A stretch of 64,000 bases of DNA from positions 1 to 64,000 of the IMG/VR virus record IMGVR_UViG_3300032046_000010. One strand, 5' to 3'. The position numbers and the translations under genes are program-made. The DNA is from a virus. This document shows, piece by piece, positions 7,698 to 41,355 of this stretch; position 1 is the stretch's first letter; the number at the start of each line of letters is the position of its first letter. The notes beneath the pieces are model-generated. The model made no database searches, was not told where the DNA came from, and worked only from the letters and a program-made list of their open reading frames with translations.

Positions 7698-7708
7698 GGT
7701 TGCCTCCC

Positions 7709-15111: not shown

Positions 15112-15382
15112 CGCCGTGTCTCCTGGTGAGACCGTCCAGGAACGGGAGGTCATCACGGTCGTCAATCTCAGCAAACGAACGGGTGGACGGCATCGTGAAC
15201 AGACCTGATCCCTTGACGGACGCGATGGGTTGGGACTCCTGCGACTTGATGGCGTGATGCATCTTCATGTTCTCTTTGCGCAGCTCCAAGAACAGCCGCT
15301 CCAGGCCAGCGTACTCACGCCGCCAGAAGCAGTCAAAGCATACGCGTGGCGGCTTCGCCGTCTGTTTGGTACGCTGTACCAC
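15104..15382 (-). CDS. Hypothetical protein with CxxC
   Basis: 92 aa, basic N-terminus (RTKQTAKPPRVCFDCFWRRE), then a helical segment and an acidic region (AEIDDRDDLPFLDGL). Only one CxxC pair is seen. No family is recognised. Confidence 0.7.
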   Translation of the reverse strand: MVQRTKQTAKPPRVCFDCFWRREYAGLERLFLELRKENMKMHHAIKSQESQPIASVKGSGLFTMPSTRSFAEIDDRDDLPFLDGLTRRHGDD

Positions 15383-24839: not shown

Positions 24840-27800
24840 TCACGCTATCCTAGCGCGTGCCTCCAGAACCTTCAGCCGCTCTGCGTCCCTTGACTCCAGT
24901 GTGAATGCATCCCCGTTGTTCGTCGCCCGAACCTCGATGATGTCTCCCACGTTGAACTTCCCCTTGAACGATGGCCAGGATGACCCAAAGCAGATGAGGT
25001 CGATGTAGCCCTTGTATCCCAGCAACCCCATGAAACACATCTCGCTCATCCGCTTGTCGAGCCGGATGTTCATGTGGGTTACAATGCCCACCGCCTTGAA
25101 TCCGCTCTTGGCGTTGCTCGCCGTCTGTTCGATGTCATCCTTGGAGTGCTGCTTGACAGGGTGCCGCCCCTTCAACAACGCCCGTTCAAACACGTCCAAC
25201 GGCTCCCCCGCATCGAGCCTCCGGCGAAGCAAATCCAAGTCTACCATGAAGTGGATCCTGATGGAGTGCCACTTGGCGTCGATGGTAGCGTGGAAAGCAA
25301 CGGGAGTCCCGATGCCCCTGTCGATGATCGGTCTATGCTCATCGAACGTGTCAACGTCAATCTTGGCCCTGTTGTTCTTGCCGCTGATGTCCTCCACGTT
25401 GATGTTGGCGTACCTAGCGCCCCAACGCATCTTCAGTTTGGTTTCCTCGCTGGGAGCCTCGCCGGTATGGAAGTCGCCAATCTGGTTGTACTTGATCTCA
25501 ACCAGGATGCCGTGTAGGAACCCATGCGGACGCGAGTACAGATCCTCATCATCCATCCGCTCCCACTTCACGTTCATCCTGTCGTTCAACAGTTCTTGGT
25601 AGGGAACAAGCGGATGCTTACCACTGGCAAGGGGGCAGACCTCTGCGGCCGTCCACACAGCGTCCTGTTCGCTGTGCTGAGGTTCCTTCCTCGACCGCAA
25701 CAACATCTCCGCCACATCGACATCGCCGCTAGACTTGGCCAGCGCCTTCCAGACATCCTCGATGTGCTCCACGAACCACTTGCGGTTGGGGAACAGCTGA
25801 TCCAGAGCGCCAGAGCGGGCAAGCGCCAACACCACTCCCTTGTGGACCTTCCGCCGGTCCACGCGGCCAATGAAGTCGATGAACGACTTGAACGGTTGTA
25901 CCGCCTCGATGCTCTGCGCCGCTATCCCGCCACACCCCTTCACATCCACGAGCGAACCCAGGATGTCGGGTCCGTCGATGATGTAGCTGGCCTTGCTGCG
26001 GTTGATGTCCGGCAGCTTGACCTTGATGCCCAGCCGGTCGGCTTCCTTGACGTACCTACGGATGGCTTGTTCGTCCGGCTCGCAAGACAACAGCGCCCAC
26101 ATGAACTCGATGGGATAGTACGTCTTGAGGAACATCTCACGATAGCTGATGAGCCCGTAAGCAGTGGAGTGCGACTTGTTGAATCCGTATGAACCAAACA
26201 TCGTGATCTGGTCCATCAGCTTCGCAGCCAACACCGGATCATGCCCCCTCGCCGCCGCTCCCTTGATGAAGTTTTCGCGCTCCTTGCCAAGTGCCGCATC
26301 GCCCCACTTCTTGGCGATCTTCTTGCGCAAGCTGTCGGCGGTCCCGGGAGCGAAGCCAGCGAAGTCGGTGAACATCTTGATGACATGCTCTTGGTACACA
26401 ATGACGCCGTAGGTGTCGGAGCAGATCTGGTCCACCAGCGGGTGGATGGTCTTGATCTTGCTAGGGTCCTTTTTGCGCTTCAGATACTCTGCCGCCAGAC
26501 CGCTCCGCGCCGTTCCCGGCCGGTCCAAGGCGATCATCGCGGCCACGTCCTCAAAGCTGGTGAACTGTACGCCCTCGGTGATCTTGTCTGCGCTGGGGGT
26601 ATCGTACTGGAACACGCCCGCGTAAGCATGAGCAGTGAAGTTGGCCAGCACATTCAGGTCGTGAAGGTCGATGCGGTCCCAGTTGATCTCGACCCCATGC
26701 CGTTCCTTCACAGCCTTGAGACAACGCTTCATGACGGTCAGGTTGCGCAACCCCAACACGTCCATCTTCACCAGGCCGACTCCCTGGACGCCGTACATCT
26801 CAAAGCCAGTGATGATCTCCTGCTTCCCGGCCGACTCCCTCATCTCCATTGGGATGATGTCTACCAGCGGAACCGGCGAGACCACGAAGCCCGCCGCGTG
26901 CTTGCCCAATCCCCTGACGTGGCTCTCCAGAACGCGCGCATGCTCCAGGACCTCCGGGTGGCGCTCATTGAACTTGCGGCACACCTCAAAGTCCTTGAAG
27001 CTATCCTCGATGGTCTGGCTGGCCCGCTCGTCACCACTCGACCGCTCGATCACGCTGCTGGTAACCTCGTCAACCTCCGACATCGGTATCTGGAGCACCC
27101 GTGAGATGTCCTTGATGCATTGCTTCCCCTTGAGCGTCATCAGGGTGCTGATCTGGGCTGTCTTGTCCTCCCCGTAGCGGTGTCGCAGGTATGTGAACAC
27201 CTCTTCACGGCGCTCATCCTCAAAGTCCATGTCGATGTCGGGCAGGTCGATGCGGTCTGGGTTGAGGAACCGCTCGAAAATGAGACCGTGTTCGATGGGG
27301 TCGGTGTCCGTGATGTTGAGCAGGTAGCTGACGAAGCACCCGCCCGCGCTCCCCCTCCCGGGTCCACACTCAATGTGAGCATCGTTCTTGGCCCAACGGT
27401 ACAGGTCCCAGACCACCAGGAAGTAGCGCACCACGTTCTGCTTCTTGATGGCCTTCAACTCATGTCGGAGCCGCGCGATGTACTGCTCATGAAGCTCGCT
27501 GGAAGTGATACCGCGCCGGACGGCCAACTCATCGATGCGTCGCGGCATCTCCCGCGACTCCCAACCCACCCAACACAGGTGCATCATGTACTTGAACTCA
27601 TCGTTGTCGAAGTGTTTGGGGATGTCGATGGCCGGGACCAGCGCCTTGAAACGGTCCACTTCAAAGCTGGCCTGGCACTTCTCAGCAATCTCCAGCGTGT
27701 TCAACATTGCCCGCCGGACCTCCGGCTCAGGCATGTAGGGGTGGGAGCGCCGGAACGCATCCAACATCTCATCCCACGTCTTGAGCCAGAAGTCCTGGAC

Positions 27801-28610
27801 GCTGAACTTGAACCTGTCGGGGTTGCTCATGAAGTCGTGAGTGCGGATACACAGCATGACCTCGTGGGTCTTGACGTGCTCCTTCTTGATGTAGTGGGCG
27901 TCCACGGTGGTCACCATCGGTCGGCCGAACCGCTTGTGGTACTTCAGCATCGCCCGGTTGACCATGGCCTGCTCTGGCATATTGGTCGGCTGGATCTCCA
28001 GATAGAAGTCCTCACCAAACAGGTCCACAAACCATTCCATGCGACGGTCGGCCAACTCCTGGTTGCGATGTACGATCTGGTGAGGGACCACACCCTCCAT
28101 ACAGCCGGATAGGACGATCAGCCCCTCGCGGTGCTTCTCCAGGGTCTCCAGGTCGATGCGTGGCCGCTTCCAGAACCCCTCAAGATAGCCCACAGAGGTC
28201 ATCTTGAACAGGTTGAGTAGCCCCACCTGATTCTTGGCCAAGACCGTCAGGTGATACCGTTGGCGGAGGCCCAGCTCAACCTCCCGCTTGTAGATGGCCT
28301 CCCCGATGCCCTTGCGGCCCTTGTTCTCCGCCCTGATCCGCTCGTCATCCTCCGGCGGCAGACCTCGTGCGTGGCGGCTCTCACACAGGTAAAACTCACA
28401 ACCGTAGATTGGCCACGGCCGCGCTTCGGGGTCCATGTTGAACACGTTCTCATGAAGCTTGTATGCTCCACGCATCGAGCCATGTTCTGTGAAGGCGATG
28501 GCCGGGTGCCCCAACTCGACCGTCCTGTTCAGGTAGTCTTGCTGCCGTCCCAAGCCGTCCAACAAGGAATATTCACTGTGTACGTGGAGGTGAACGAATG
28601 GCTTGCTCAT
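24840..28610 (-). CDS. dnaE: DNA polymerase III alpha subunit (DnaE family, C-family polymerase)
   Basis: 1256 aa. The N-terminal PHP domain starts HLHVHSEYSLLDG and has TEHGSMRGAYK and LIVLSGC; most metal ligands of proofreading-type PHP domains look present. The palm has CGPGRGSAGG, PDIDMDFEDERREEV with the two catalytic Asp, and VKMDVLGLRNLT. C-terminal parts include helix-hairpin-helix and an OB-like segment (VGIVTHMNIRLDKRMSEMCF). It is the phage replicase. ATG at 28610 in an ATGA overlap. Confidence 0.95.
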   Translation of the reverse strand: MSKPFVHLHVHSEYSLLDGLGRQQDYLNRTVELGHPAIAFTEHGSMRGAYKLHENVFNMDPEARPWPIYGCEFYLCESRHARGLPPEDDERIRAENKGRKGIGEAIYKREVELGLRQRYHLTVLAKNQVGLLNLFKMTSVGYLEGFWKRPRIDLETLEKHREGLIVLSGCMEGVVPHQIVHRNQELADRRMEWFVDLFGEDFYLEIQPTNMPEQAMVNRAMLKYHKRFGRPMVTTVDAHYIKKEHVKTHEVMLCIRTHDFMSNPDRFKFSVQDFWLKTWDEMLDAFRRSHPYMPEPEVRRAMLNTLEIAEKCQASFEVDRFKALVPAIDIPKHFDNDEFKYMMHLCWVGWESREMPRRIDELAVRRGITSSELHEQYIARLRHELKAIKKQNVVRYFLVVWDLYRWAKNDAHIECGPGRGSAGGCFVSYLLNITDTDPIEHGLIFERFLNPDRIDLPDIDMDFEDERREEVFTYLRHRYGEDKTAQISTLMTLKGKQCIKDISRVLQIPMSEVDEVTSSVIERSSGDERASQTIEDSFKDFEVCRKFNERHPEVLEHARVLESHVRGLGKHAAGFVVSPVPLVDIIPMEMRESAGKQEIITGFEMYGVQGVGLVKMDVLGLRNLTVMKRCLKAVKERHGVEINWDRIDLHDLNVLANFTAHAYAGVFQYDTPSADKITEGVQFTSFEDVAAMIALDRPGTARSGLAAEYLKRKKDPSKIKTIHPLVDQICSDTYGVIVYQEHVIKMFTDFAGFAPGTADSLRKKIAKKWGDAALGKERENFIKGAAARGHDPVLAAKLMDQITMFGSYGFNKSHSTAYGLISYREMFLKTYYPIEFMWALLSCEPDEQAIRRYVKEADRLGIKVKLPDINRSKASYIIDGPDILGSLVDVKGCGGIAAQSIEAVQPFKSFIDFIGRVDRRKVHKGVVLALARSGALDQLFPNRKWFVEHIEDVWKALAKSSGDVDVAEMLLRSRKEPQHSEQDAVWTAAEVCPLASGKHPLVPYQELLNDRMNVKWERMDDEDLYSRPHGFLHGILVEIKYNQIGDFHTGEAPSEETKLKMRWGARYANINVEDISGKNNRAKIDVDTFDEHRPIIDRGIGTPVAFHATIDAKWHSIRIHFMVDLDLLRRRLDAGEPLDVFERALLKGRHPVKQHSKDDIEQTASNAKSGFKAVGIVTHMNIRLDKRMSEMCFMGLLGYKGYIDLICFGSSWPSFKGKFNVGDIIEVRATNNGDAFTLESRDAERLKVLEARARIA

Positions 28611-29260
28611 GCTTTGTAACCGCTGTCTTCCATCCACTTGATAATCAGCGCCTTCAGGTCCTCACCGAAGTCCTCACGAAGCACCCATCGCAGGTAGTCT
28701 CGCTGATCCGGTCCCTCGACCACCAGCTGTGATACACGCTTCCCGCGATGTTGACCAAACATCAACACCGCATCCGGCTCCGACTCGCGGCCGGTTGGAC
28801 CTCCGACCTCAACCCATTTGGTTGGCTTCGGCTTCGTGACCAATGCCACGCGCCCCAAGATGCCGCGCCCGCACTTCTTGAACCTCCCGAAGCTAGCCAC
28901 CCTGACCGGCCTGAAACCATCCGCCTCCATCTGCTTGGCCCGCTCTTCATCGGACTTGGCGAATGCTTCCGACAGTGTGTTGCCGCAGTTGGGATGGGAC
29001 GGAGGTGTGGCCAAAATCCCGGCCACAGGATTCACTGCCCCCATCATGGGGATGTCAGGGATGCCGGTCTTTGGGCCTTTCTGCTGTGAAGGCTCCGGCT
29101 TGGACTCCGGTACAGGCACCAACCACTCAACAGCATCCTGCGTGGAAGCATCCACTTCCTGCGTGGGCTTCGGCTCCGGGTCAGGCCGCGCTTCCGGCTC
29201 CGGCTCCGCCTTGGGAGCCTGACCGCTGTAGCGCTGCCGTACCTCATCAAGCGTCGGCAT
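28607..29260 (-). CDS. MPTL-tagged protein with DUF3820-like C-terminus
   Basis: 217 aa. It starts MPTLDEVRQRYSGQ, shared with two other proteins in the window, then an acidic Pro-rich linker (EPEPEARPDPEPKPTQ). The C-terminal part (LMFGQHRGKRVSQLVVEGPD, then YLRWVLREDFGEDLK) resembles DUF3820, a small module often linked to nucleases. TGATG junction with the kinase-like gene. Confidence 0.7.
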   Translation of the reverse strand: MPTLDEVRQRYSGQAPKAEPEPEARPDPEPKPTQEVDASTQDAVEWLVPVPESKPEPSQQKGPKTGIPDIPMMGAVNPVAGILATPPSHPNCGNTLSEAFAKSDEERAKQMEADGFRPVRVASFGRFKKCGRGILGRVALVTKPKPTKWVEVGGPTGRESEPDAVLMFGQHRGKRVSQLVVEGPDQRDYLRWVLREDFGEDLKALIIKWMEDSGYKA

Positions 29261-29880
29261 CAGCCCACCGCCAGCAGTTCCTTGGCTCGTTGAAGGGTCG
29301 CAGACCGATCCAGGCCTGTCGTGTCCAGTCTGTAGACCTCCAAGCCCTCGACCCACGATACAGCCTCACAACACTTGGAGATCAGCTCAGCCTCCCTCGA
29401 CATCCACCCCTTCAAGCTCAACCCCATCTCTTCAGCACGCCCCAAGATGCGCGCTGGGAAGATCCTGTCGCCCGTCCGCTCCATCCTCTTGTTGAGGTCA
29501 CAGACCAGTTCCAGAACAACTCCATGCGCATCCCGCAACATCCGACCCCAGACGGCTGCGACCTCCCCGCCTTGCCCCTCCGGCAAACAAGTGAACACAT
29601 GATCCAGATCCATCGCATTGTAGGCAAGCGCTGAAGGCATCCCACGGTCACAGATCACGTCCGGCCGGAGCGCCCGAAACACGTCCATCTGGAACATGTC
29701 CTCGACCCACGTGTTGACCGGGAACACGGAGTGGATGCTGACCGGAAGGATGGAGCCGGGGGTGTGGTCGTCGCCGTCGCGTCTGAAGCTGCGGTACAAC
29801 GGGCGGTTGATGTCCTTGGACAGCGCTTTCCCCAGCGTGGTCTTGCCGGTCCCGATGCCGCCTTCCAACACGATGATCAT
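29260..29880 (-). CDS. P-loop nucleotide kinase (dNMP/thymidylate kinase-like)
   Basis: 206 aa starting MIIVLEGGIGTGKTTLGKAL, a P-loop typical of deoxynucleotide kinases; VICDRGMPSALAY resembles the DRxxxS lid/substrate motif of dTMP kinases. It probably phosphorylates a deoxynucleoside monophosphate. Beside ThyX-like and pyrophosphohydrolase genes it could act on a modified dNMP or on modified DNA (inference). ATGA overlap upstream. Confidence 0.75.
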   Translation of the reverse strand: MIIVLEGGIGTGKTTLGKALSKDINRPLYRSFRRDGDDHTPGSILPVSIHSVFPVNTWVEDMFQMDVFRALRPDVICDRGMPSALAYNAMDLDHVFTCLPEGQGGEVAAVWGRMLRDAHGVVLELVCDLNKRMERTGDRIFPARILGRAEEMGLSLKGWMSREAELISKCCEAVSWVEGLEVYRLDTTGLDRSATLQRAKELLAVG

Positions 29881-31145
29881 GGCTGGCCTCCGAAACAACG
29901 CGATGCCGCCCGGTCCAGTCTGGCCAAGGCTTGCTCCATCAACTCCGGCGGTGAGTTGAGTGGTGGACAGATGCGGAGCGGCCGGTGAGGCAGATGCGCC
30001 ATCAACAGCAGTCCTTCCTCCATCGCCCGATCACGGAAGGCAAAGGCATCGCTGTCTCCCCACTTCGGCGTCAGCGACCAGACCAACCCGGTCCCTTCCG
30101 CCTTGTCCACCCAACGGCGACAAGCGAAGCCGTTGCGCAGAATGGTCTCACAGTTGCGCACGTTCTCCAACACTCCGCGTTCCAAGCCGTCGATCAGCCA
30201 GTTGATGAGGTAGCCCGCCAACAGGTTCCCGCCGAACGTGCTGAAGTGGGTCCCGGGCTCAAAGCCCTTGGATGCTTCCTCCGTCGCCAAGCAAGCTCCG
30301 GCCGGGATGCCCATCGCCAACCCCTTGGCCAACGTGAGGATGTCCGGCTTGAACCGCTCGCCGCTCACGTCGGTGACAGCCGGGTTCATCCAAGCACACG
30401 GATAGCCGGTGCGCCCCATCCCCGACTGAACTTCATCGAAGATCACCAGGAACCCGTGCTTGGCCCGAAGCTCCGACAACCTGGACCAAAACACGGGGCC
30501 GTAGAAGCGCATCTGGTTGTGCGTCAGAACCGGAGACATGATGAGCGCCGCAATATCGGGCCAGTTGATGAGGAATCTCGCATCCGAAGGAACCTCAGAC
30601 GGTGTGGTGTGTAGATGGTATGTTTCCAAGTCCTGTTCGGCCATGTAGAATCCAGACGCAAACGGACCAAATCCCTGCTTGTAGTACGGCGTGGCGTTGG
30701 TCTGTGTGGCAGCGAGACTGAACCCTGTGCGACCGTGAAGTTGATCTGGCAATGACAAAATCACCTTGCGCCCTGGCTCCCCCTTGATATGGTGATAGCG
30801 CCTCGCCAGCTTGATGGCGGCTTCATTGGCCTCCGTCCCGCTGTTCGCAAAGAACACACGGTCCATGCCGCAGAACGCCGTCAGCCGGTCGGCCGTCGCC
30901 GTCCGTTCCGGCACGTTGTACCCGTTGGACACATGGACAGCCTGGGTGCTGTTGACCATGAAACACTCGATGGCACGCCTGAGATCCGTGTGCCCCAGCG
31001 AGGCCACTCCGCCATCACACCACAGGTCGAAGTATTGCCGGCCGTCCCGGTCGATCAGGAACCCATCAGCCGCGCCTTCGATGGTGGGCTCCAACGGCGG
31101 GAGCGAAGTGCGGATCAACGACCTGGGGTCAGCCTTCCCGCCCAT
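29877..31145 (-). CDS. Class III PLP-dependent aminotransferase
   Basis: 422 aa starting MGGKADPRSLIRTSLPPLEP. VFFANSGTEANEAAIKLARR, LHGRTGFSLAATQTNATPYY, FLVIFDEVQSGMGRTG and LTLAKGLAMGIPAGA (PLP lysine) are the ordered motifs of class III (ornithine/acetylornithine/GSAM-like) enzymes. It moves an amino group between an amine and a carbonyl compound. Such an enzyme is rare in a phage; in this cluster it may build an aminated base or its precursor (inference). All key motifs look intact. Confidence 0.9.
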   Translation of the reverse strand: MGGKADPRSLIRTSLPPLEPTIEGAADGFLIDRDGRQYFDLWCDGGVASLGHTDLRRAIECFMVNSTQAVHVSNGYNVPERTATADRLTAFCGMDRVFFANSGTEANEAAIKLARRYHHIKGEPGRKVILSLPDQLHGRTGFSLAATQTNATPYYKQGFGPFASGFYMAEQDLETYHLHTTPSEVPSDARFLINWPDIAALIMSPVLTHNQMRFYGPVFWSRLSELRAKHGFLVIFDEVQSGMGRTGYPCAWMNPAVTDVSGERFKPDILTLAKGLAMGIPAGACLATEEASKGFEPGTHFSTFGGNLLAGYLINWLIDGLERGVLENVRNCETILRNGFACRRWVDKAEGTGLVWSLTPKWGDSDAFAFRDRAMEEGLLLMAHLPHRPLRICPPLNSPPELMEQALARLDRAASRCFGGQP

Positions 31146-31149
31146 GACA

Positions 31150-32115
31150 TCATTCTCCCTTCGGCTTGGACCAACGGAACGGGTCGTGCCCCCACAGTTC
31201 CGCGTAGCCTGCGATGCGATCAACCGTGTCCTGATCCCCAGTCACTTCCCCGATCAGGTCGCCGTCCGGCTGGCGTCCGTGGTTCTCACAGTCGGCCACG
31301 AGGTACAGCGGGCAGGGCGCATGAGCATCCGACCCGTCGATGCGTCGCTGGTTCTCCAGGCGGTAGACGCAAGCGTTGAAGGTGTCGGTCAGCTTGTCCA
31401 CGCACGGTGGTGCGATGACCCGCCGGAACAGTGGGTCCACCTTGCGCTCCAGCTCAGCAACGATACCACGGATGATGGGTCCCCACAGACCGTATTGCAG
31501 GATCCAGCAGGACCGCTCCCCGATGATGTGGAGCAGAGCCGCCAGGTTGAGCGACCATGAGATGCGGTGCGTGGCCCCCAACGGGATCACGTCCCTGGCA
31601 TCCTCCATCGGCACGCCCGCCTCGACCAGTGCGTTGTAGGACCGCTCCGCCGATGCCATCGCCTGTTCGAACAGCGCAGCCGCCTTCGGTCGTTGGAACA
31701 CAGCATCGGCCGTCCTGTACTGCCCCTTCCTGGCGAACTCACCCATGCTCTGGATACGCATCGACTGCGACCAGAACCCGCTCTTGGCTAGGTCGGGCAC
31801 GATGTCAAGTCCCATCCGCTCCGGCGAGGCGCAGACGCCGATGCGGTGACGCACCATCTGCTCACGGAAGGACACCGACACGTCCTCCAGCATGAACACG
31901 AACCCCACGTGCTCAGCGATGGGGATGCGCTGCTCCAGGATCTGGAGGAACAGAGCATCGACCTCCCGCTTGAAGTCGGGGTCTTGGTTGCGCTTCAGTG
32001 CCAGCGCATCAGGCAGCATCAGCTGTTCCTCGCCCTTGCTGGCCTGCCAGACCGTGTAGATGGTCTCGACCGGGTTGCGGGTGCACGACAACAACGTCGC
32101 CTTGGGGTCGCTCAT
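31150..32115 (-). CDS. Diverged ThyX-like (flavin-dependent thymidylate synthase family) protein
   Basis: 321 aa, longer than usual ThyX (about 220-250). EHVGFVFMLEDVSVSFREQM and RHR at 89-91 match the conserved helix before the ThyX motif, and EDARDVIPLGATHRISWSLN matches the C-terminal helix. The rest of the RHRxxSxNExSxR motif is lost (RHRIGVCASPERMG). It may make thymidylate or hydroxymethyl-dUMP, or do another flavin reaction on a pyrimidine. ATGA overlap with the upstream gene. Confidence 0.78.
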   Translation of the reverse strand: MSDPKATLLSCTRNPVETIYTVWQASKGEEQLMLPDALALKRNQDPDFKREVDALFLQILEQRIPIAEHVGFVFMLEDVSVSFREQMVRHRIGVCASPERMGLDIVPDLAKSGFWSQSMRIQSMGEFARKGQYRTADAVFQRPKAAALFEQAMASAERSYNALVEAGVPMEDARDVIPLGATHRISWSLNLAALLHIIGERSCWILQYGLWGPIIRGIVAELERKVDPLFRRVIAPPCVDKLTDTFNACVYRLENQRRIDGSDAHAPCPLYLVADCENHGRQPDGDLIGEVTGDQDTVDRIAGYAELWGHDPFRWSKPKGE

Positions 32116-33083
32116 CCTTCCACCTTCCTGTACTTGTCCTTGATGGCCTGCTCTGCCCTTCTGGCGACGATGCGCAGGACATCAACCCAGTCCCTCGCCC
32201 GCTCGATGTTCGAGCCGTCCGCCAGCCCTTGGTTGTTGGGCTGGTCGAACATGATGGTGTGGACACCGTGTCTGGACAGTTCCCAGACCTCACGAGGCAT
32301 GTCGTCCACGGCCGCGATCACCGTCGCCGGAGCTATGCGTCTGGTGATGGCGTCCCACTTGTCGTGATCGAACAGCAGCAAGTCCCGCTGGAACCCGTGC
32401 TCATCCAACCAGTCCGTCGTGTCGAGGTACAAGCGGGGGTACTCACGCACCGGCCGCGCCGTCAACACCACGACCTTGACACCCAGTTCACGTATCAATG
32501 CGATGGCATCCGCCGCTCCAGGGATAGGCTTGAGCTTCCGCAACGCTCCGGTCTGGTACAACTCACGCCTGTGATCCAAGTAGGCTTGCGCCTTCGCAGA
32601 ATCGCCCTCCGGCACCGGGCCGATCATGCCTTGTGTCGCCGGGTCGCCCAGGAAGTCGGCCAACACACCATCCAAGTCGGTGACGAACACCAGCGTGCCC
32701 TCGCGCAGCTTGACCTGCTCTGCCTCCCACCGTTGGGCAACCGTCCGCGTCTTGGCGTGGAAGCCCTCACACCATTCACAACCCTGGATGCCGCAGGTCA
32801 GCAACACAGCGATGATGTACTTGAACGTGTCCACTGCTTCCTCAATCACCCGCTCCCGGTCAGCCGGTCGGGCAGAGGCCAACAAATGGTAGCGTGATCG
32901 GTCGGTGGCCTTCTGAAGCTCCGCCAGTTCCTCGTGCGCTCCCAACAGCAAATCCTTGATCAGCAATGCCCGCTGGTCCGGGTCCAGCTGTGCCGCATCG
33001 TGCCACAGACGCTGTTGTTCTGCTTGCGCTGCCCATAGCTTCAGGATGGGGCAATCGTCGCCTACCTTCAAGTCACAGGCCAT
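32112..33083 (-). CDS. All-alpha NTP pyrophosphohydrolase fused to HAD phosphatase
   Basis: 323 aa. Residues 1-120 have the ExxE (52-55) and ExxD (82-85) metal motifs 26 residues apart, typical of MazG/dUTPase-type pyrophosphohydrolases. Residues 130-300 are a HAD domain with DLDGVLADF (D136, D138), VVVLTARPV and AAVDDMPREV. Together they could convert a dNTP to dNMP and then to deoxynucleoside, or sanitise dUTP. It overlaps the FAD gene by 11 bases. Confidence 0.8.
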   Translation of the reverse strand: MACDLKVGDDCPILKLWAAQAEQQRLWHDAAQLDPDQRALLIKDLLLGAHEELAELQKATDRSRYHLLASARPADRERVIEEAVDTFKYIIAVLLTCGIQGCEWCEGFHAKTRTVAQRWEAEQVKLREGTLVFVTDLDGVLADFLGDPATQGMIGPVPEGDSAKAQAYLDHRRELYQTGALRKLKPIPGAADAIALIRELGVKVVVLTARPVREYPRLYLDTTDWLDEHGFQRDLLLFDHDKWDAITRRIAPATVIAAVDDMPREVWELSRHGVHTIMFDQPNNQGLADGSNIERARDWVDVLRIVARRAEQAIKDKYRKVEG

Positions 33084-34050
33084 TCGCCGCCCTCCACCGC
33101 TCCGCCCGCTCCAACGCCTTGTCCATCGTCATCCGGGGGTCCCATTGAGCGAACCGGCCCAACACCAACACGTTGGACGGATGCTGGAACACCGGAACCT
33201 CCCCGAACACATGAGCGGTGCGGATGTATCGCGGCTTGCCGACAATGCTGGCGTCGGAGCCGAACACAGAGTTCACGTCCAACATCAGCGCCCGCTCCGA
33301 CACACCTTCAGCGTTGTAGGCTCCGTCTGGCAGCGGTGACAAGCGATACAGGGAGTTGCCCGGCGTGTACGGCGTGTACACGAAGTCCCAGTCCACGAAG
33401 TCCCGACAGGATGGCGCTTCAACCCTCGCCATGTAGGCGTCTGAAGCATGGAGCGGAACCGGCGAACGGATGCCCAGCATCGACAACGTCAGTGGTAGCG
33501 GCAGCGTCCAGACCAGATGGCTGTACTCCAAGTGTTCCTGGTCGTCGCCGCTCAGGGCCGACCGGCGAACGTCCAGTGTGTTCGCTCCTGGGTACCAAGC
33601 CACAACTCCCTTGCGCAACACCTTGACTCGGTCCTCCACAGCCCGCCCCAACGCTCCCACGGACACCATGTACCGCTGCGGGCCTGCTTGCCCGCCCTCG
33701 TTCATCGCTGTGTCGTGGAACCCATAGGTGGTCCGGCGAGTCTTGGTGTAGTGGTGAAGCACAAACTGGCGCAACGGTTCCTTCCCGAAGTGGTCGGCCG
33801 CAGCCTTGAATGAGTACACACGCCCCTTCAGATACAGGCCAGAACGCACAGCCCGCTGCTCACATCGGATACCCCAGACCTTGAAAGTGCTGTCGAACAG
33901 TTCTGACTGATGGATGTAGAACAGCCCGCCTCCGCCGGGGTTGCCCCCGGTTCCAAGCGGGTCGATGACAGTGACCTCGTGGTGTTTGGCCAGCACCAGA
34001 GCCGCTGCGACTCCGGCCGGGCCTCCGCCCACGATGATGATCGGCTTCAT
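33073..34050 (-). CDS. FAD-dependent oxidoreductase / amine-oxidase-like
   Basis: 325 aa starting MKPIIIVGGGPAGVAAALVL, the Rossmann dinucleotide motif, with the second beta strand ending VTVIDPLGTGG and a C-terminal FAD contact (VLVLGRFAQWDPRMTMDKAL). It resembles small FAD enzymes of the protoporphyrinogen-oxidase or UDP-galactopyranose-mutase group. The substrate is unknown. Neighbours suggest that it oxidises a nucleotide or amine intermediate. ATGA overlap. Confidence 0.78.
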   Translation of the reverse strand: MKPIIIVGGGPAGVAAALVLAKHHEVTVIDPLGTGGNPGGGGLFYIHQSELFDSTFKVWGIRCEQRAVRSGLYLKGRVYSFKAAADHFGKEPLRQFVLHHYTKTRRTTYGFHDTAMNEGGQAGPQRYMVSVGALGRAVEDRVKVLRKGVVAWYPGANTLDVRRSALSGDDQEHLEYSHLVWTLPLPLTLSMLGIRSPVPLHASDAYMARVEAPSCRDFVDWDFVYTPYTPGNSLYRLSPLPDGAYNAEGVSERALMLDVNSVFGSDASIVGKPRYIRTAHVFGEVPVFQHPSNVLVLGRFAQWDPRMTMDKALERAERWRAANGL

Positions 34051-35159
34051 GGCGGGGCCTCCAACGGTGGCGGCTGGTTGCGTGGCGGGGGCATCTCCAG
34101 GATGCCTTCACGCATCATCCGCCCGATCAGCTTGGCAGCCGCTCGGGCAAGGTCGGGAGTCCGCACGCCTCGCCAAGCAACCGGCATCGCCGGGTCCGTC
34201 AACTGCTTCAGCTTGGCTCCCGGTAGCGCCAAAGCCTTGTCCCAAGTGGTGCTGAACGCGATGTCCAACCGCTTGGCCAGAGGCTTCAGCTTGATCACGC
34301 AGACCTTGGCATAATGGCCGCTCGTGGCGATGTACACAGTGATGTAGTTTGACTTGTCAGTCACACGGTTGACGAACACGTCGCCCGGGAGCGCCCCGCT
34401 GCGCTTGGCCTTCCAATCGTACCCCAACCTGAACAGAGACAACTGGAGCCGCTTCAGGAAAGCATCGACCAGCGGTTCAAGGTCGCTGAACCGCCCTGGA
34501 TCGGTCGGCCGCTTCCGCTTCTCACGCTTCACCAACTTGGCCACCAGCGTGCCCTTGGCCTTCCCGGTCGCCTTCGGAACCACGATGGCAGGTGGCGTGA
34601 TCTTGTTGATGTACTTCCGCTCGATGTCGGCCAGTTCCACGTTGAGCGCATGAGGGTCCGTCCGCTCATCCATGAACCGCTCCGCCGTCAAGGAGTGTTC
34701 CATCAGGTACAGCTTCAGCGAGTAGCAGCGCGCACGCCAAGTACAAGCCGACTCGACATGCCCAGACGCCTTGTTGTAGCCTCCGTCGCAGGTCGAACAG
34801 TGGTCATGGTAGCCCAGGCACTCAGGTACGGTCACCGTCATCCGCGCCTCCTGCTGCGGGAAGCCTACGTCATCAATCCACGGGATGGGAATCGAATCTT
34901 CAATGCCGTCATTGCCCCTTACCCTGAACTCATCCCAGCACACCTGGCCGACCATCACCAACGTTGAAGCCCACCCGGCATCCCCGTCGCTCACGAACGC
35001 CACTTGGCCCCAACAGTAGCGTTCTGTGTTGATCGTCCGCTTCCCATCCTTCCATGAGGCCCATCCGCCGGGCATCGGCTTCGGGCCTAGACTGTGACGC
35101 CGGATGATGCGGGACACGAACCTGAAGTCCAGAGGCTTGATGGACTCGTGGATTGCCAT
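34047..35159 (-). CDS. Unknown Cys-rich protein in the enzyme island
   Basis: 370 aa starting MAIHESIKPLDFRFVSRIIR with GGGAGG upstream. A dense Cys/His segment (CLGYHDHCSTCDGGYNKASG, then Cys at SACTWRARC) suggests a metal site. The C-terminal half has basic linkers and a beta-rich part (NYITVYIATSGHYAKVCVIK). I do not recognise it. Co-directional and overlapping with the FAD gene, it probably works in the same pathway (inference). Confidence 0.75.
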   Translation of the reverse strand: MAIHESIKPLDFRFVSRIIRRHSLGPKPMPGGWASWKDGKRTINTERYCWGQVAFVSDGDAGWASTLVMVGQVCWDEFRVRGNDGIEDSIPIPWIDDVGFPQQEARMTVTVPECLGYHDHCSTCDGGYNKASGHVESACTWRARCYSLKLYLMEHSLTAERFMDERTDPHALNVELADIERKYINKITPPAIVVPKATGKAKGTLVAKLVKREKRKRPTDPGRFSDLEPLVDAFLKRLQLSLFRLGYDWKAKRSGALPGDVFVNRVTDKSNYITVYIATSGHYAKVCVIKLKPLAKRLDIAFSTTWDKALALPGAKLKQLTDPAMPVAWRGVRTPDLARAAAKLIGRMMREGILEMPPPRNQPPPLEAPP

Positions 35160-35160
35160 C

Positions 35161-35805
35161 TCAAGCCTCCCGCAAAACCTGACGAGCACGTGCCAGAGCG
35201 GACTTGACCCTGGCGGCCGGGATGCCCAGATGTTCCGCCAACATGTTCTCGGTGATGATCGGCTTCCCGGGTCGAACGTTGCGAGCCATGATCTCCAGTT
35301 CAGGTGGAGGACACAACCGTGCAGACAACACCAGCCGGTCCACCTCATCCAACCGCTGGATGATGCGCTCGGTGACCCAGGCCTGCTGCTCATGTTCCTG
35401 GGTAGCTTCCAAACAGGCTGGGTCCGTCACGTCAGCATCGTTTTCCGCTGTGGAGCCGAACCCGGCCAAGCGCTGGTGCTTGGGAGACACACCATCGCCT
35501 TCATCGATGCGTGGTGCTCGTTTCAGCGCCAGTTCGTAGTTGACGATGGCCAACAGCGCGTTGCGCACAACCAGGTCAACCCAAGTGCGGAGTGCCCGGC
35601 CGCGCTCCGGCTTGTGCGTGGCCACGGCATAGATGGCGGCGATGCGAGCCTCTTGAAGCAGTTCAAAATGGTTCAAACCTGGGATGCGCTTGAACGGACG
35701 CGCCTTGGCATGGATCACGTCCTCCAGTTGAGGCAACAGCTTCGCCAGCGTCGGCTTCAACTCGTCAGGGCATGTCCAGCCTGTAGGAACGATATGCGGT
35801 GCCAC
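35161..35805 (-). CDS. Sigma-70-like RNA polymerase sigma factor
   Basis: 214 aa; GTG at 35805 with AGGAGG five bases upstream. FELLQEARIAAIYAVATHKP and RALRTWVDLVVRNALLAIVN match sigma region 2, and the C-terminal ENMLAEHLGIPAARVKSALA is a region-4 helix-turn-helix. Region 1 and 3 features are absent, as in phage late sigma factors. It may direct host RNA polymerase to phage promoters, perhaps the seven repeated elements (inference). Confidence 0.78.
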   Translation of the reverse strand: MAPHIVPTGWTCPDELKPTLAKLLPQLEDVIHAKARPFKRIPGLNHFELLQEARIAAIYAVATHKPERGRALRTWVDLVVRNALLAIVNYELALKRAPRIDEGDGVSPKHQRLAGFGSTAENDADVTDPACLEATQEHEQQAWVTERIIQRLDEVDRLVLSARLCPPPELEIMARNVRPGKPIITENMLAEHLGIPAARVKSALARARQVLREA

Positions 35806-35886
35806 CCATCCCTCCTGTCCCCATCCCAACGCCCGCCTGCTCCCTCTGAAGCAACCGGGCGCTGAGTCGGAACGGGAAGCCGGTGG

Positions 35887-37148: not shown

Positions 37149-37787
37149 CTAGTACACCTTGTTGATCGCCATCCGCTGGAGCCAGTCGATCAGCTGTGGA
37201 GCGCCGTCGCCGCGCTTCGGGTCCGACATGAACTGGACCGTCTTGGATGCCCACGGCTTCAACTGGCAGATCATGAACTTGCGGTTCCAGACCCGGCACA
37301 CCAGCGTAGCTCCGCCCTGCCGACCGTTGGGCGACCCAAGCTTGATCTCGCCCTTGCTGTAGATGCCGCCCTTGCTGTCGGTGAACGACTCCATCGGGCC
37401 GTCCCACGGGCACGGACCACGGTGACCGGCGAGGGCATCCACGCCGCTCTTGACCGCCATCAGCACGTTGGACTGCTTGGCGATGCGGTCCCGCTTCTCA
37501 GGGGTCAAGGTCGCCGGATCAACACGCCGCTGAGCCTCGCTGGGCGGAGTGGCCTTGCCGTCCGTCGTCGTCGGGACATCGACCGGCTTGGCCTGCTGCT
37601 TGGCAGGCACCACCGGCTGCGGCTTCGGCTGTTCCACCCTGGACTCCGGCTTGGAGGTCGGGGTCTGGGACTCTGCGATGGCATCCTCACGGGCCTCCCG
37701 GGCACGCAGCTCAGCCTCAGCATCCGGCTCCGGCTGGAGTGCGACTCCAACTGTGAACCGCTTTCTCAAGTCATCCAACGTCGGCAT
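37149..37787 (-). CDS. MPTL-tagged hypothetical protein
   Basis: 212 aa starting MPTLDDLRKRFTVG, behind promoter-like copy E and GGAGG. A long charged linker (AEAELRAREAREDAIAES and more) leads to a C-terminal globular domain with TLVCRVWNRKFMICQLKPWA. The N-terminal peptide is shared with genes at 5369 and 28607. No family is recognised. Confidence 0.75.
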   Translation of the reverse strand: MPTLDDLRKRFTVGVALQPEPDAEAELRAREAREDAIAESQTPTSKPESRVEQPKPQPVVPAKQQAKPVDVPTTTDGKATPPSEAQRRVDPATLTPEKRDRIAKQSNVLMAVKSGVDALAGHRGPCPWDGPMESFTDSKGGIYSKGEIKLGSPNGRQGGATLVCRVWNRKFMICQLKPWASKTVQFMSDPKRGDGAPQLIDWLQRMAINKVY

Positions 37788-37842: not shown

Positions 37843-40041
37843 CTACTGCGCCACCCGACGCACCCGGCCGTTCATCAGCTTCGCCGCCACGGCCTTGAAC
37901 AGCGCCTTGGGGAGCGCCGCCAGATCCCAAACAACCTCCGCATTGCGATAGAAGCTCGTCACCGCATCGCTCTGGATTCCGATTCCCACGACCTCGATGC
38001 CGCGCTTTTCAGTCGCCCGCACCACGTCCTTCAGGTGCCGCCCCTCGATGCTACGCTCACGCTCATTGCGCCGGGTGTAGTTGCCGCTCACGTTGGCGCG
38101 CTTGGGGTCGTAGGTTCCGCCGGTCACGGTCGAAGTCCCGGCCGCAGGTTGACCATCCGACAGGACGATCAGCACCTTCCGCTCCTGGGGCTGCTGCGCC
38201 AGCAGGTCAGCGACCATCTGGAGCGCATCGCCGTCAGCGTTGTTCGCCCGGCCGTTGATCTTCACCAGGCGGGAGCGCACACGCCGGAACTGCTCGCTGA
38301 AGCTCTTGTACTGGTACAGGTGGATCGACTCATTGCGGCCGTTCCACCAGCTTCCAGCGTCCAGCGTGTCGTCATCAGTCGTCACCATCCCGCTGGTGAA
38401 CCCGTAGATTGCGAAGGGCACGTTGAGGGCCGTCAGCGTCTCACCCAGGGCAACCGCCGCCAGCTGGGCCGTCGCCGCCTTGACTCCGCCCATCGAGCCG
38501 GACTCATCAACCAGCACCGCAACCGCCGGGACCTCATCCAGCGTCGTGATCTTGCGGGAGAACACGCGCCGCTCGCCGGTCACCGCCCGGTACAGAGCCG
38601 CGCTGTCCAGCTTCCCTTCCTCCTGGTCGGGGTCGTTCTGGACGTCAGCCTTGCCCTTGAGGACCATCATCAACTTGGAGCGGAGGCCGCCAACGACTCC
38701 CGCGACCATCTGCTTCAGCTGGGCGTAGTGCGCATCGCTGCTCAACTCTTGGACGATGATCTTGTCAGCCGCCTTGGCGCTTGGCCGGGCCACGTAGCGG
38801 CCATCGCTCTGCGCCGCGCTGGAGGCGTCCTTGCTCAGCTGGTCGCGCACCGCGTCCATCATGTCCTTCGCAGCGTCATCGAACAGGTCATCAACCGGCT
38901 TGGAGTCGGTCGGGTCATCATTGATCTTGGTGTTGTCGCTGGCGCCCACGTTGCCGCCCGCCTCGCCGGTCTCAGCCTCGCCACCCTCCTGGTCACCCTG
39001 ATCCTCGCCAGTCCCTTCCTGCTCGCCCTTCCCGGCCGACCCTTCCTGGTTGCCTTCCTCGCCGTCCTCACCCTCAACAGCGCCGTCGTCGCCTTCCTCG
39101 CCCTCGTCACCGCCGTCCTCATCCTCGCCCTCGCCCGCACCACCCTCACCGTCGTCGCCCTCGTCGCCCTCGTCGCCCTCGTCATCCGACTCGCCCTTGG
39201 ACTCGCCCTTGGTGTCCTGCTCGCCGTCCTCAGCACCGTCGTCGCCCGCACCGTCGTCGCCCTCGTCAGCCTCGCCCTCATCACCCTCATCGGCCTTGCC
39301 CTGCTCGCCCTTGCTCTGGGGCTTGGACTCGGGCTTGGACTCGGGCTTGGACTCGGGCTTGGACTCGCCCTGCTCGCCGTCCTGCGACTCCGGCTGGGTC
39401 GGCTGGGTCATCGCGTCCCGCAGCGTCTGCTCAACCAGGTGCATCATCGACTCAACCTTGTCGTACCCAGCGCCGCGAAGCTCCGCCATCCTGGGGAGCA
39501 GCTTGGCAACCGCGCCTTCCAGCCGGGGGTCCAAGGTCACGGCCGACTCACCGAACGACCGGAGATACAGTTCAGAACCGAACCCGTGAAGCCCACTGGT
39601 GTAACCCGGGGTCGCCGCGTTGCGCTTGATCAGCTTGACGCCGTAGCGCCGGAGCGCCGACAGGTTCCGCTCAACGCCCTCAAACGGGTTGCCCATCTCA
39701 TCGTGGATGTCGGCCACGATGTTCAGGATGCTGTGGCGGGTCTTGGAGACCTTCATCGCCTCGGTGATCAGCTCACTCGGCAGCTTCACGGTGGCGCCAG
39801 CCGCCCGCGCCGCAACCGCCGCTTGCTCTTCACGAGCGTGGCAAGTCTCATGGTCCAGCATCCCCTCGACCACCGCCACAACGTCCTCACCCATCTCATC
39901 GACGTTCTCAGGCAGCTGGATCAGCTTCTGGTCGAACAGGAACCGACAGGCGGTCCCGGCCTGGACTACCTTCAACCCGGTGTCGGCGCTGAAGGTCCTG
40001 GCCACCTTCCCCATCGTTCCTTCCTGCGTCCGGTTCTTCAT
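37843..40041 (-). CDS. CobT-like von Willebrand factor A protein
   Basis: 732 aa starting MKNRTQEGTMGKVARTFSAD. N-terminal domain with a metal-protease-like DHETCHAREE, a long acidic Glu/Asp/Gly/Ser linker (about 240-400; includes 12-bp SKPE repeats), then a VWA domain whose MIDAS reads VLVDESGSMGG with later VLIVLSDGQP. The order matches CobT of cobaltochelatase. CobT partners a CobS-type AAA+ ATPase, which is the next gene upstream. GGAGG five bases before ATG; promoter copy F immediately upstream. Confidence 0.88.
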   Translation of the reverse strand: MKNRTQEGTMGKVARTFSADTGLKVVQAGTACRFLFDQKLIQLPENVDEMGEDVVAVVEGMLDHETCHAREEQAAVAARAAGATVKLPSELITEAMKVSKTRHSILNIVADIHDEMGNPFEGVERNLSALRRYGVKLIKRNAATPGYTSGLHGFGSELYLRSFGESAVTLDPRLEGAVAKLLPRMAELRGAGYDKVESMMHLVEQTLRDAMTQPTQPESQDGEQGESKPESKPESKPESKPQSKGEQGKADEGDEGEADEGDDGAGDDGAEDGEQDTKGESKGESDDEGDEGDEGDDGEGGAGEGEDEDGGDEGEEGDDGAVEGEDGEEGNQEGSAGKGEQEGTGEDQGDQEGGEAETGEAGGNVGASDNTKINDDPTDSKPVDDLFDDAAKDMMDAVRDQLSKDASSAAQSDGRYVARPSAKAADKIIVQELSSDAHYAQLKQMVAGVVGGLRSKLMMVLKGKADVQNDPDQEEGKLDSAALYRAVTGERRVFSRKITTLDEVPAVAVLVDESGSMGGVKAATAQLAAVALGETLTALNVPFAIYGFTSGMVTTDDDTLDAGSWWNGRNESIHLYQYKSFSEQFRRVRSRLVKINGRANNADGDALQMVADLLAQQPQERKVLIVLSDGQPAAGTSTVTGGTYDPKRANVSGNYTRRNERERSIEGRHLKDVVRATEKRGIEVVGIGIQSDAVTSFYRNAEVVWDLAALPKALFKAVAAKLMNGRVRRVAQ

Positions 40042-40057
40042 CTTCGCCTCCACGCTC

Positions 40058-40086
40058 CTACCAGTAAGCGAAAACCGGGCCGTTTG
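40058..40086 (-). promoter_or_regulatory. Promoter-like element, copy F
   Basis: Minus-strand core TTTTCGCTTACT (40074-40063) preceded by AAACGGCCCGG and followed by GGTAGGAG. It lies 17 bases upstream of the CobT-like start at 40041. Confidence 0.7.
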
Positions 40087-40096
40087 TGAACGGCCC
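40077..40096 (-). terminator. Rho-independent terminator-like hairpin
   Basis: On the minus strand GGGCCGTT-CACA-AACGGCCC forms a perfect 8-bp stem, followed by GG then TTTT, 13 bases after the CobS-like stop. Its 3' arm is also the upstream half of promoter copy F, so termination and initiation elements overlap. Confidence 0.55.
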
Positions 40097-40108
40097 TGGT
40101 TCCCAGTC

Positions 40109-41314
40109 CTAGTAGAACACGCGGTCAACGATGGCCTTCACGTAGGCGCGGTCATCCTTGCCCAGCCGGTTCAGGATGGCGACCGCAGCCGCCTTCCGCG
40201 CGTTGCCCCACTTCACGGTCAGCTTGGCCCAGGTGAGCAGCCGCCGGGTGCTCATCGTACAGAAGCACTCTTCACGGATCAGGCCGTCGCGGACCTTGCG
40301 AGCGATGTCCACCATCTTGCCAGCCACGTCCTTGGTGACGCCGGTCTTGGTCACGAGCACGCTGATCTCCTGGGGTCCCTGGAGATAGGAGACTTCCATC
40401 ACCACGCCGAACCGATCCAGAGTGGCCTCGTTCAGCACGTTGGTCCCGGTGTACATCCCGCTATCGTCGCCGCGCCCCAGGGTGTTCGCCGTAGCGATGA
40501 TGCGGAAGTTGGAGTGGACCTTCACGACCTCGCCGTTGTTCTCTGCCAGGACCAGCGGGTGACCGGGCTCAAGCACCGACTGAAGCCGCATCATGATCCG
40601 CGCGGGAGCCGCGTCCAGCTCATCGATGATCAGCCAGAAGCCCTTGCGCGCGCACTCCGTCAGGATGCCATCCTTCCAAAGCACGACCGTCGCACCAGAT
40701 TCCGACTCCGCCAGCACCTTCTCACCCACGAAGTCCGCCACCCTGAACTCGCCGTTCATGTTGACGCGCTTGGTGGGCTGGTTCATCAGGGACGCCAGCT
40801 CAAACGCCAGGCTGGTCTTGCCACAGCCCGCCGGGCCGACCATCAGCACGTTGGTGTCCATCTCAACGCCAACCGCCATCTGCTCCAGGGTCTCATCATC
40901 GAAGTCGAACATTTCATCGTGCTTCGGAACGTACAGTGCGTCATCCTCGCACACGTCGTCACGGACCTTCAAGACCGCCTTGCCGATGGAGAGGCAACCG
41001 GGCGGGAGCGCCGGAGCGGCCGGGGTCGGCTTCGCGGCCGGGGCAACCGGGGCGGGAGCGGCCGGGGCGGGGGTCGGCGTGGACGACGGAACGGTCCAGC
41101 CGGTGCCGCGCGCACCCTTGGTGTGGCCCTTGCTCAGCTGACGCCGTCCGTAGGTGCTGATCGTCTTGGAACCGGGGTACTGGCGGCGGTATTCCATCGT
41201 GCTCATCCCGTGGGCCGACTTGAGGTGGACGGCCAGCGTGTGGTAGTACTGCCCACAACGTTCGCACTTCACCATCGCGTTTCCGTCGCGGTCGGCCGGG
41301 TTGAAGTTTGCCAT
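40109..41314 (-). CDS. CobS/MoxR-like AAA+ ATPase with N-terminal C2H2 finger
   Basis: 401 aa starting MANFNPADRDGNAMVKCERC. C17, C20, H30 and H35 form a MucR-like C2H2 zinc finger. An Ala/Pro/Thr linker (KPTPAAPALPP) follows, then AAA+ with Walker A LMVGPAGCGKTS, Walker B FWLIIDELDAA, sensor 1 RIIATANTLGRGDD and Arg finger region NEATLDRFG. It is the ATPase partner of the downstream CobT-like VWA protein. In cobaltochelatase the pair inserts cobalt; in phages the substrate is unknown. Confidence 0.88.
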   Translation of the reverse strand: MANFNPADRDGNAMVKCERCGQYYHTLAVHLKSAHGMSTMEYRRQYPGSKTISTYGRRQLSKGHTKGARGTGWTVPSSTPTPAPAAPAPVAPAAKPTPAAPALPPGCLSIGKAVLKVRDDVCEDDALYVPKHDEMFDFDDETLEQMAVGVEMDTNVLMVGPAGCGKTSLAFELASLMNQPTKRVNMNGEFRVADFVGEKVLAESESGATVVLWKDGILTECARKGFWLIIDELDAAPARIMMRLQSVLEPGHPLVLAENNGEVVKVHSNFRIIATANTLGRGDDSGMYTGTNVLNEATLDRFGVVMEVSYLQGPQEISVLVTKTGVTKDVAGKMVDIARKVRDGLIREECFCTMSTRRLLTWAKLTVKWGNARKAAAVAILNRLGKDDRAYVKAIVDRVFY

Positions 41315-41355
41315 GTTCCTCATCCTCCATCGGCGCGTCCCTCGCGCCTCTCACC

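Follow-up and report, generated by a model that had tools for sequence, protein, structure and literature searches.

Known thymine-modifying systems and the island

Several phage systems that modify or exclude thymine have been described. Bacillus phage SP-15 has proven hypermodified thymine in its DNA, and a second, diverged Thy1 protein of this phage (gp130) was proposed by the authors to be a hydroxymethyluridylate synthase (PMC5977210). In PBS1, PhiR1-37 and T4-type exclusion, the canonical nucleotide is destroyed, either as dTMP by a PF06941 phosphatase or as dTTP by a pyrophosphatase (PMC12697855). Here we describe a gene island at positions 28607-35159 of a viral DNA sequence of 64,000 bases (the window), which comprises bases 1-64000 of a 93,062-base IMG/VR virus record. 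The island encodes a diverged ThyX, a flavoenzyme, a nucleotide-degrading fusion protein, an aminotransferase and a kinase. Whatever the chemistry, this operon is probably dedicated to making a modified pyrimidine nucleotide for the DNA of the phage. The pairing of ThyX with the flavoenzyme extends far beyond the window, and this core is a bigger finding than the island to which the original prediction drew attention.

The systems of phages M6, ViI and PhiW-14 resemble the island in being thymine-directed and in using folate chemistry, pyridoxal phosphate (PLP) and flavin enzymes, and kinases; their C5 side chain may also end in amino groups. They differ in having a ThyA-type hydroxymethylase, a 5-hydroxymethyldeoxyuridine (5hmdU) DNA kinase and an amino acid:DNA transferase (ADDT), whereas the kinase of the island resembles deoxynucleoside monophosphate (dNMP) kinases. 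The ThyA-family dUMP hydroxymethylase (PF00303) has no match in the 93-kb record, which may be incomplete; the control was positive in 9 of 14 genomes. The 5hmdU DNA kinase (PF18723) and ADDT (PF18724) are absent from this record and from the records of three contigs with the same gene block (L012, L013 and L015), while the M6 control was positive for both (1e-57 and 2e-48). Because these three enzymes are absent, the island is, as judged from gene content, not the M6/ViI/PhiW-14 pathway, and the known thymidine hypermodification route invoked in the original prediction had to be abandoned.

The closest precedent is SP-15, which has 5-dihydroxypentyluracil in its DNA and two Thy1 proteins, gp9 and gp130. 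The latter lacks the Tyr of the ThyX motif SxRY, and a FabG-like short-chain dehydrogenase/reductase (SDR), gp129, is encoded directly upstream of it (L110:7026-8911). In contrast to the island, no block of class III aminotransferase and thymidylate-kinase-like genes is described in SP-15, the tailoring genes are teichoic-acid-like, and gp130 is only remotely related to the window ThyX. The systems with deoxyuridine in their DNA also differ: the ThyX variant, aminotransferase and flavoenzyme of the island imply a substituted rather than a bare uracil. However, the fusion protein of the island would destroy canonical nucleotides just as those systems do.

Among cultured phages, Pbunavirus, Wifcevirus, Plotvirus (mycobacteriophage cluster D) and Lambovirus (Gordonia cluster DV) share the ThyX variant, the flavoenzyme, a HAD or MazG protein and DnaE, and several also have a FabG-like SDR. 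Relatives of gp129 are found in the ThyX cassettes of Plotvirus and Lambovirus, with a more distant one in Wifcevirus; this SDR is a possible shared side-chain reductase. Unlike the island, the core of these four groups has no class III aminotransferase or thymidylate-kinase-like kinase annotated in the block, and the actinophage flavoenzyme is a very distant branch.

Organisation and conservation of the operon

Judged by gene content, the window virus is a tailed phage. Pfam domains of DnaE, a DnaB-like helicase, RecA, a gp32-like protein and a 5'-3' exonuclease are present in the record, and large tail and baseplate-like proteins were recognised when the translations were read by eye. The minus strand holds practically all genes of the window. 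The island is a minus-strand operon with a sigma-like gene upstream and DnaE downstream:

35161..35829, minus strand: sigma-70-like protein, operon head (Pfam Sigma70_r2, 6e-5; tblastn matches at the same place in contigs L011-L015)
34047..35159, minus strand: Cys-rich protein, function unassigned (ATG at 35159 with GGAGG; Cys and Gly positions invariant across orthologues)
33073..34050, minus strand: FAD oxidoreductase resembling UDP-galactopyranose mutase (UGM), renalase and amine oxidases (profiles and fold; member of a phage flavoenzyme family)
32112..33083, minus strand: MazG-like NTP pyrophosphohydrolase (N-terminal, ExxE/ExxD) fused to a HAD 5'-deoxynucleotidase (PF06941, 1.7e-9); MazG-HAD below
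31150..32115, minus strand: diverged ThyX with a Cys-rich C-terminal tail (PF02511, 9e-21)
29877..31145, minus strand: class III aminotransferase, ArgD-like (PF00202, 1e-57; ATG at 31145, the open reading frame extends to 31223)
29260..29880, minus strand: thymidylate-kinase-like P-loop dNMP kinase (PHROG 'thymidylate kinase', 1e-10; Walker A and DR..S..AY)
28607..29260 (probably), minus strand: Pro/Glu-rich protein, function unassigned, between kinase and DnaE (ATG at 29260 overlaps the kinase stop)
24840..28610, minus strand: DnaE-type DNA polymerase III alpha subunit, translationally coupled downstream

All of the named families of the original prediction are thus present on the minus strand, with the Cys-rich gene starting where it had been placed, although seven genes rather than eight lie in 28607-35159. 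The genes overlap as predicted: most junctions are start/stop overlaps of a few bases, which indicate translational coupling, and a GGAG-type ribosome site precedes most starts. Two gene calls have alternatives. A longer Cys-rich frame, reaching 35393, would overlap the sigma-like gene, and a GTG-started frame for the Pro/Glu-rich protein reaches 29356. The Cys-rich protein has no match in Pfam and PHROG searches, and its AlphaFold model (pLDDT 44) is too poor for use.

No close relatives are found among annotated phages, as a megablast of the region against phages gave no match. Scans of IMG/VR with the single aminotransferase or ThyX protein, and single-sequence tblastn with the kinase and with the flavoenzyme, also gave none. 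An alignment-based ThyX scan of IMG/VR recovered six contigs (L011-L016), of which L012-L014 are near-identical, leaving about four lineages. In these the order sigma-like gene, (Cys-rich gene), flavoenzyme, MazG-HAD, ThyX, aminotransferase, kinase and DnaE is kept, although identities to the window proteins are low: 25-28% for the FAD enzyme, 31-37% for MazG-HAD, 35-51% for ThyX, 31-36% for the aminotransferase, 29-38% for the kinase and 35-50% for DnaE. Recurrence of the order in six other viral contigs shows that the island is not a chance grouping. Its retention at such identities across about four lineages is strong evidence, at the level of sequence, that the block is one functional unit which includes the aminotransferase and kinase. 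The original prediction had missed the broader pattern of a widespread ThyX/flavoenzyme pair.

A ThyX subfamily linked to a flavoenzyme and DnaE

Canonical ThyX proteins carry the motif RHRx7SxRY. The window ThyX retains the Thy1 domain, but its motif reads RHR-[about 19-residue insert]-WSQSMRI, with the active-site Tyr replaced. All five window-type proteins depart from the canonical motif in the same way: RHR is kept, an insert of 15-20 residues is followed by W(S/A)QS(M/F)R(I/L), and Ile or Leu stands in place of Tyr. Residues were numbered on a Thermotoga maritima sequence, and the same motif emerges from the canonical phage proteins without it.

A survey was made of 85 ThyX proteins with genomic surroundings, in which neighbours within about 8 kb were counted. 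The SxRY Tyr is missing in 47 of them, with A, F, I, L, M, T or V instead; the other 38 are canonical. A Cys-rich tail (of the P.C...G.C.F....C type) is found on most variants and is mostly absent from the canonical proteins. The flavoenzyme family is encoded at 39 of the 47 variant loci and at none of the 38 canonical loci, and DnaE at 41 of 47 and none of 38. Fisher p-values for these contrasts (1e-16 and 6e-18, respectively) overstate independence, as the canonical proteins form only two clusters at 50% identity. The variants form 21 such clusters; the flavoenzyme is associated with 19 of them, a result that does not depend on the p-values. By motif and neighbourhood, the window ThyX is thus a member of a phage subfamily which lacks the active-site Tyr and is tied to one flavoenzyme family and to DnaE.

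Uracil-DNA glycosylase genes are also found in these surroundings. The window has a gene of this superfamily at 14545-15174 on the minus strand (PF03167, 1e-25), and others lie beside variant ThyX and DnaE at eight loci (L018, L019, L026, L033, L044, L066, L077 and L081). This suggests that uracil policing may be part of a wider ThyX-variant system.

The flavoenzyme and its distribution

A profile of the window FAD protein matches proteins of Pbunavirus Banzai, Wifcevirus WFC and Rhizobium phage Y65 over nearly their full length (5e-61 to 8e-63). These are variously annotated as 'putative flavoenzyme', 'hypothetical' and 'polysaccharide deacetylase'. The last of these annotations, in Rhizobium phage RHph_Y65 (L008:5407-6369), is likely a misannotation, as the protein belongs to the phage flavoenzyme family and is encoded beside ThyX.

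The ThyX/flavoenzyme pair occurs in Pbunavirus, Wifcevirus, Rhizobium phages, and mycobacterial and Gordonia phages. Counts of flavoenzyme and ThyX in the phage collection run closely together: 291 and 290 in phages of Pseudomonas, 27 and 27 for Escherichia, 8 and 10 for Rhizobium, and 26 and 26 for Mycobacterium. A Gordonia phage announcement lists an 'oxidoreductase' in clusters AE, BN, D, DG, DV and EF, and ThyX in D, DG, DV and EF (PMC11385102).

The AlphaFold model of the window flavoenzyme (pLDDT 83) has the GxGxxG FAD site and the overall fold of the family. Foldseek places it nearest renalase (1e-13) and UGM (4e-13), with TM scores of about 0.6-0.7, and amine oxidases are also near; the profile also matches UGM, but identity is only 12-14%. 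The predicted resemblance to UGM, renalase and amine oxidases is thus at fold level only, and the protein is not claimed as a UDP-galactopyranose mutase proper. Among viral models, fold matches include one from Pseudomonas phage PA5, a phage that also appears among the ThyX hits, and an 'oxidoreductase' of Mycobacterium phage Phelemich. The link between window-type and actinophage flavoenzymes is weak by sequence (hhalign probability 69), and the actinophage branch appears to be joined to the window type mainly via intermediates and modelled fold.

Other enzymes of the operon

In the window protein, the HAD domain of MazG-HAD scores above the cut-off for the NT5C family PF06941, to which it belongs; a PF06941 search of the L012, L013 and L015 records left the orthologues below the Pfam threshold. 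The HAD motifs are kept in most of ten relatives. The ExxE/ExxD residues of the MazG-like part are kept as well, although Pfam recognition of that N-terminal part is weak. PF06941 includes the proven dTMP phosphatase of PBS1, which removes thymidylate and thereby allows uracil to take the place of thymine (PMC12697855). The HAD domain is thus assigned to the family of the PBS1 phosphatase, Dtm, with putative specificity for dTMP.

The kinase has thymidylate kinase as its best PDB match by profile (1e-4). Its invariant positions are GxGK (Walker A) and D84, R85, S89, A92 and Y93, which make up the DR..S..AY signature.

The active site of the aminotransferase is intact in five orthologues, with the catalytic Lys (K300), the PLP-binding Asp (D263) and H163-G-R-T invariant. 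The (R/K)(F/I).PPLN region is also kept; it is by the Arg of this region that ArgD-type enzymes bind the carboxylate of glutamate or 2-oxoglutarate. Because these residues are retained, the aminotransferase is predicted to be active and should transfer an amino group from an amino acid to an aldehyde or a keto compound.

Proposed pathway and alternative explanations

Systems that replace a precursor consist of an enzyme which makes the altered pyrimidine nucleotide, its kinase, destroyers of the canonical nucleotide, and a polymerase which accepts the product. By analogy, every one of these slots is filled by a candidate in the island. From the family assignments, the motifs, operon conservation and the linkage of ThyX, flavoenzyme and DnaE, we infer which reactions take place, in what order and to which base they lead, as follows. 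At the precursor level, a uracil substituted at C5 would take the place of some or all of the thymine of the phage. The diverged ThyX would place the one-carbon unit of methylene-folate onto dUMP; as it lacks the usual Tyr, reduction to dTMP would probably be left unfinished, giving an oxygenated or otherwise trapped product, for instance 5-hydroxymethyl-dUMP. The flavoenzyme, with its likeness to UGM and amine oxidases, would oxidise the side group, for example to 5-formyl-dUMP, and the aminotransferase, with glutamate as donor, would convert the aldehyde to an amine such as 5-aminomethyl-dUMP. The thymidylate-kinase-like enzyme and a host NDP kinase would then produce the triphosphate for incorporation into DNA by DnaE, while MazG-HAD would destroy competing dTTP and dTMP.

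The order of one-carbon addition, oxidation and transamination is proposed because the redox enzyme (flavoenzyme) and the PLP enzyme (aminotransferase) are extra. The precursor level is proposed because the kinase and MazG-HAD point there; the original prediction had allowed for modification before or after polymerisation, and these two enzymes favour the former. 5-Aminomethyluracil is a known phage base (PMC11550810). 5-Aminomethyl-deoxyuridine would be the simplest end product, but direct amination of the MnmEG type or a larger side chain would fit equally well, and this specific product is rather doubtful. Base or nucleotide modification, as originally predicted, is thus the best-supported reading (conserved operon, ThyX locked to flavoenzyme and DnaE, a dTMP-phosphatase-family domain, a thymidylate-kinase-like enzyme and an aminotransferase), while the 'aminated pyrimidine' of that prediction is kept as the likeliest candidate for the product.

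It is tentatively proposed that a ThyX-derived enzyme and a UGM/amine-oxidase-like flavoprotein constitute a second, independent route of thymine replacement, found in hundreds of sequenced phages, and that the class III aminotransferase and dedicated dNMP kinase of the window lineage extend this route to an aminated dUTP analogue, for example 5-aminomethyl-dUTP, before polymerisation. Such a pre-polymerisation route to aminated dUTP is not known for phage thymine hypermodification. The idea of a ThyX relative making modified thymidylate is not new, given the SP-15 proposal (PMC5977210). Within the open-licence literature searched, the following appear to be new: the ThyX subfamily, the way it is locked to a single flavoenzyme family and to DnaE, how widely it occurs, and the addition of an aminotransferase and a kinase.

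An unlikely alternative is ordinary nucleotide metabolism, in which a diverged but working ThyX boosts dTMP, the kinase, MazG and phosphatase balance pools, and the aminotransferase and flavoenzyme have unrelated roles in host metabolism. The Thy1 and thymidylate-kinase-like assignments would fit, and ThyX, MazG and kinases are common in phages. However, the active-site Tyr is replaced in 47 of 47 variants, and the window type has an insert in the catalytic motif. Variant ThyX is tied to one flavoenzyme family and DnaE, which canonical ThyX never is; the dTMP made would be lost again to the operon's own phosphatase of the dTMPase family PF06941; and the gene order, including the aminotransferase, is conserved at about 30% identity.

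The nucleotide could also be modified by MnmEG-like aminomethylation, a sub-case of the modified-nucleotide reading which we consider fairly improbable. An amine or amino acid would attack the methylene-uracil intermediate of ThyX, the aminotransferase would supply or trim the amine, and the flavoenzyme would act as a side-chain amine oxidase or lyase, again yielding a C5-substituted deoxyuridine. ArgD-like aminotransferases handle omega-amines, and the flavoenzyme fold is nearest to renalase, UGM and amine oxidases; against this chemistry, no amine donor enzyme was identified. In the pathways of thymidine hypermodification treated by Lee et al., flavin-dependent lyases reportedly act on amino-acid adducts, which also counts in favour of this chemistry.

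It is distinctly less probable that the product, instead of standing in for thymine in DNA, is a modified cytosine, an RNA or a free nucleotide that serves, for example, in counter-defence signalling by a small molecule. The PF06941 dTMPase family and the thymidylate-kinase-like enzyme point to thymidylate analogues and the tie to DnaE points to DNA, even though substrate specificity is unreadable from sequence at such divergence and phage ThyA relatives can act on dCMP (PMC5175136). Sugar or glycan modification is very improbable: the flavoenzyme resembles UGM, and glycosyltransferase 4 (GT4)-like and PIG-L genes occur elsewhere in the window, but these genes (GT and LmbE) lie far off and are not conserved together with the block, sugar aminotransferases normally belong to another class, and ThyX, MazG-HAD, the thymidylate-kinase-like enzyme and DnaE do not fit.

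If the proposed thymine-replacement route is correct, several hundred sequenced phages hold an unrecognised base-modification pathway. Among them would be the Pbunavirus phages that are studied for therapy of Pseudomonas aeruginosa, as well as many phages of Mycobacterium and Gordonia. Reported restriction resistance would be explained, the engineering of such phages by CRISPR or restriction, and their sequencing, would be affected, and flavin-based chemistry would be added to the DNA hypermodification repertoire. The SP-15 suggestion of a ThyX relative that makes modified thymidylate becomes directly testable.

Evidence on DNA modification

DNA of Pbunavirus AA20 resists 10 of 16 restriction enzymes, and that of AC20 resists 7 of 16 (PMC11945000). 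Sites for the 16 enzymes were counted in the AA20 genome (PP916316), which has none for SmaI and XhoI, one for KpnI and two for BamHI. Because only SmaI and XhoI are siteless, at least eight of the ten AA20 resistances do not come from missing sites (six if KpnI and BamHI are discounted). Methylases of the Dcm, Dam and N4/N6 types (PF00145, PF01555 and PF02086) were searched for in the AA20 genome and none was found. The resistance of AA20 is consistent with modified DNA, which it fits but does not prove.

Several points weigh against a modified thymine. HindIII, whose site (AAGCTT) contains T, cuts AA20 DNA (PMC11945000); therefore T replacement, if any, is partial or tolerated by HindIII. 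The second Pbunavirus, AC20, resists fewer enzymes. The open-licence literature searched holds no nucleoside analysis for any phage with the ThyX/flavoenzyme pair. The contrast with the 38 canonical ThyX loci is partly phylogenetic, as these loci fall in two sequence clusters. A profile search of SP-15 detects no member of the flavoenzyme family, the likeness of the modelled flavoenzyme reaches fold level and so gives no substrate assignment, and the aminotransferase lies outside the core cassette of cultured phages. The whole 93-kb record also avoids 6-bp palindromes, GC-only and T-containing alike (observed/expected: CCGCGG 0/40, TCCGGA 0/42, GTCGAC 0/33 and CTCGAG 0/26), and M6 does likewise. 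As M6 is hypermodified, this avoidance was dropped as evidence against modification.

Two further sources were considered. PaP1, a Pakpunavirus, is the subject of one of them. That paper, on 'modified bases' (PMC4177049), was set aside as Pbunavirus evidence, since the 91.7 kb genome does not fit Pbunavirus. SacII cuts JG024 (PMC3008698), which says nothing on T.

Other genes in the window

The original prediction had named nearby glycosyltransferase, LmbE and MT-A70 genes as possible participants. At a distance of 7-29 kb, they fall outside the conserved block and are not retained as such:

22599-21598, minus strand: GT4-like protein (weak, 1e-3)
4674-5444, minus strand: LmbE/PIG-L deacetylase
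13465-14109, minus strand: MT-A70 methylase

A spermidine-synthase-like methyltransferase (6933-7841, minus strand) is scattered with the MT-A70 and PIG-L/LmbE genes in the early region. Adjoining the island, at 37843-41323 on the minus strand, are genes for a long, acidic, repeat-rich VWA-like protein and a CbbQ/MoxR AAA ATPase, which are conserved in L011 (partly), L015 and L016. Finally, the minus-strand frames at 37149-37787, 28607-29356 and 5369-5968 have MPTLxxxRxxF/Y N-termini and Pro/Glu richness in common and may form a paralogous family.

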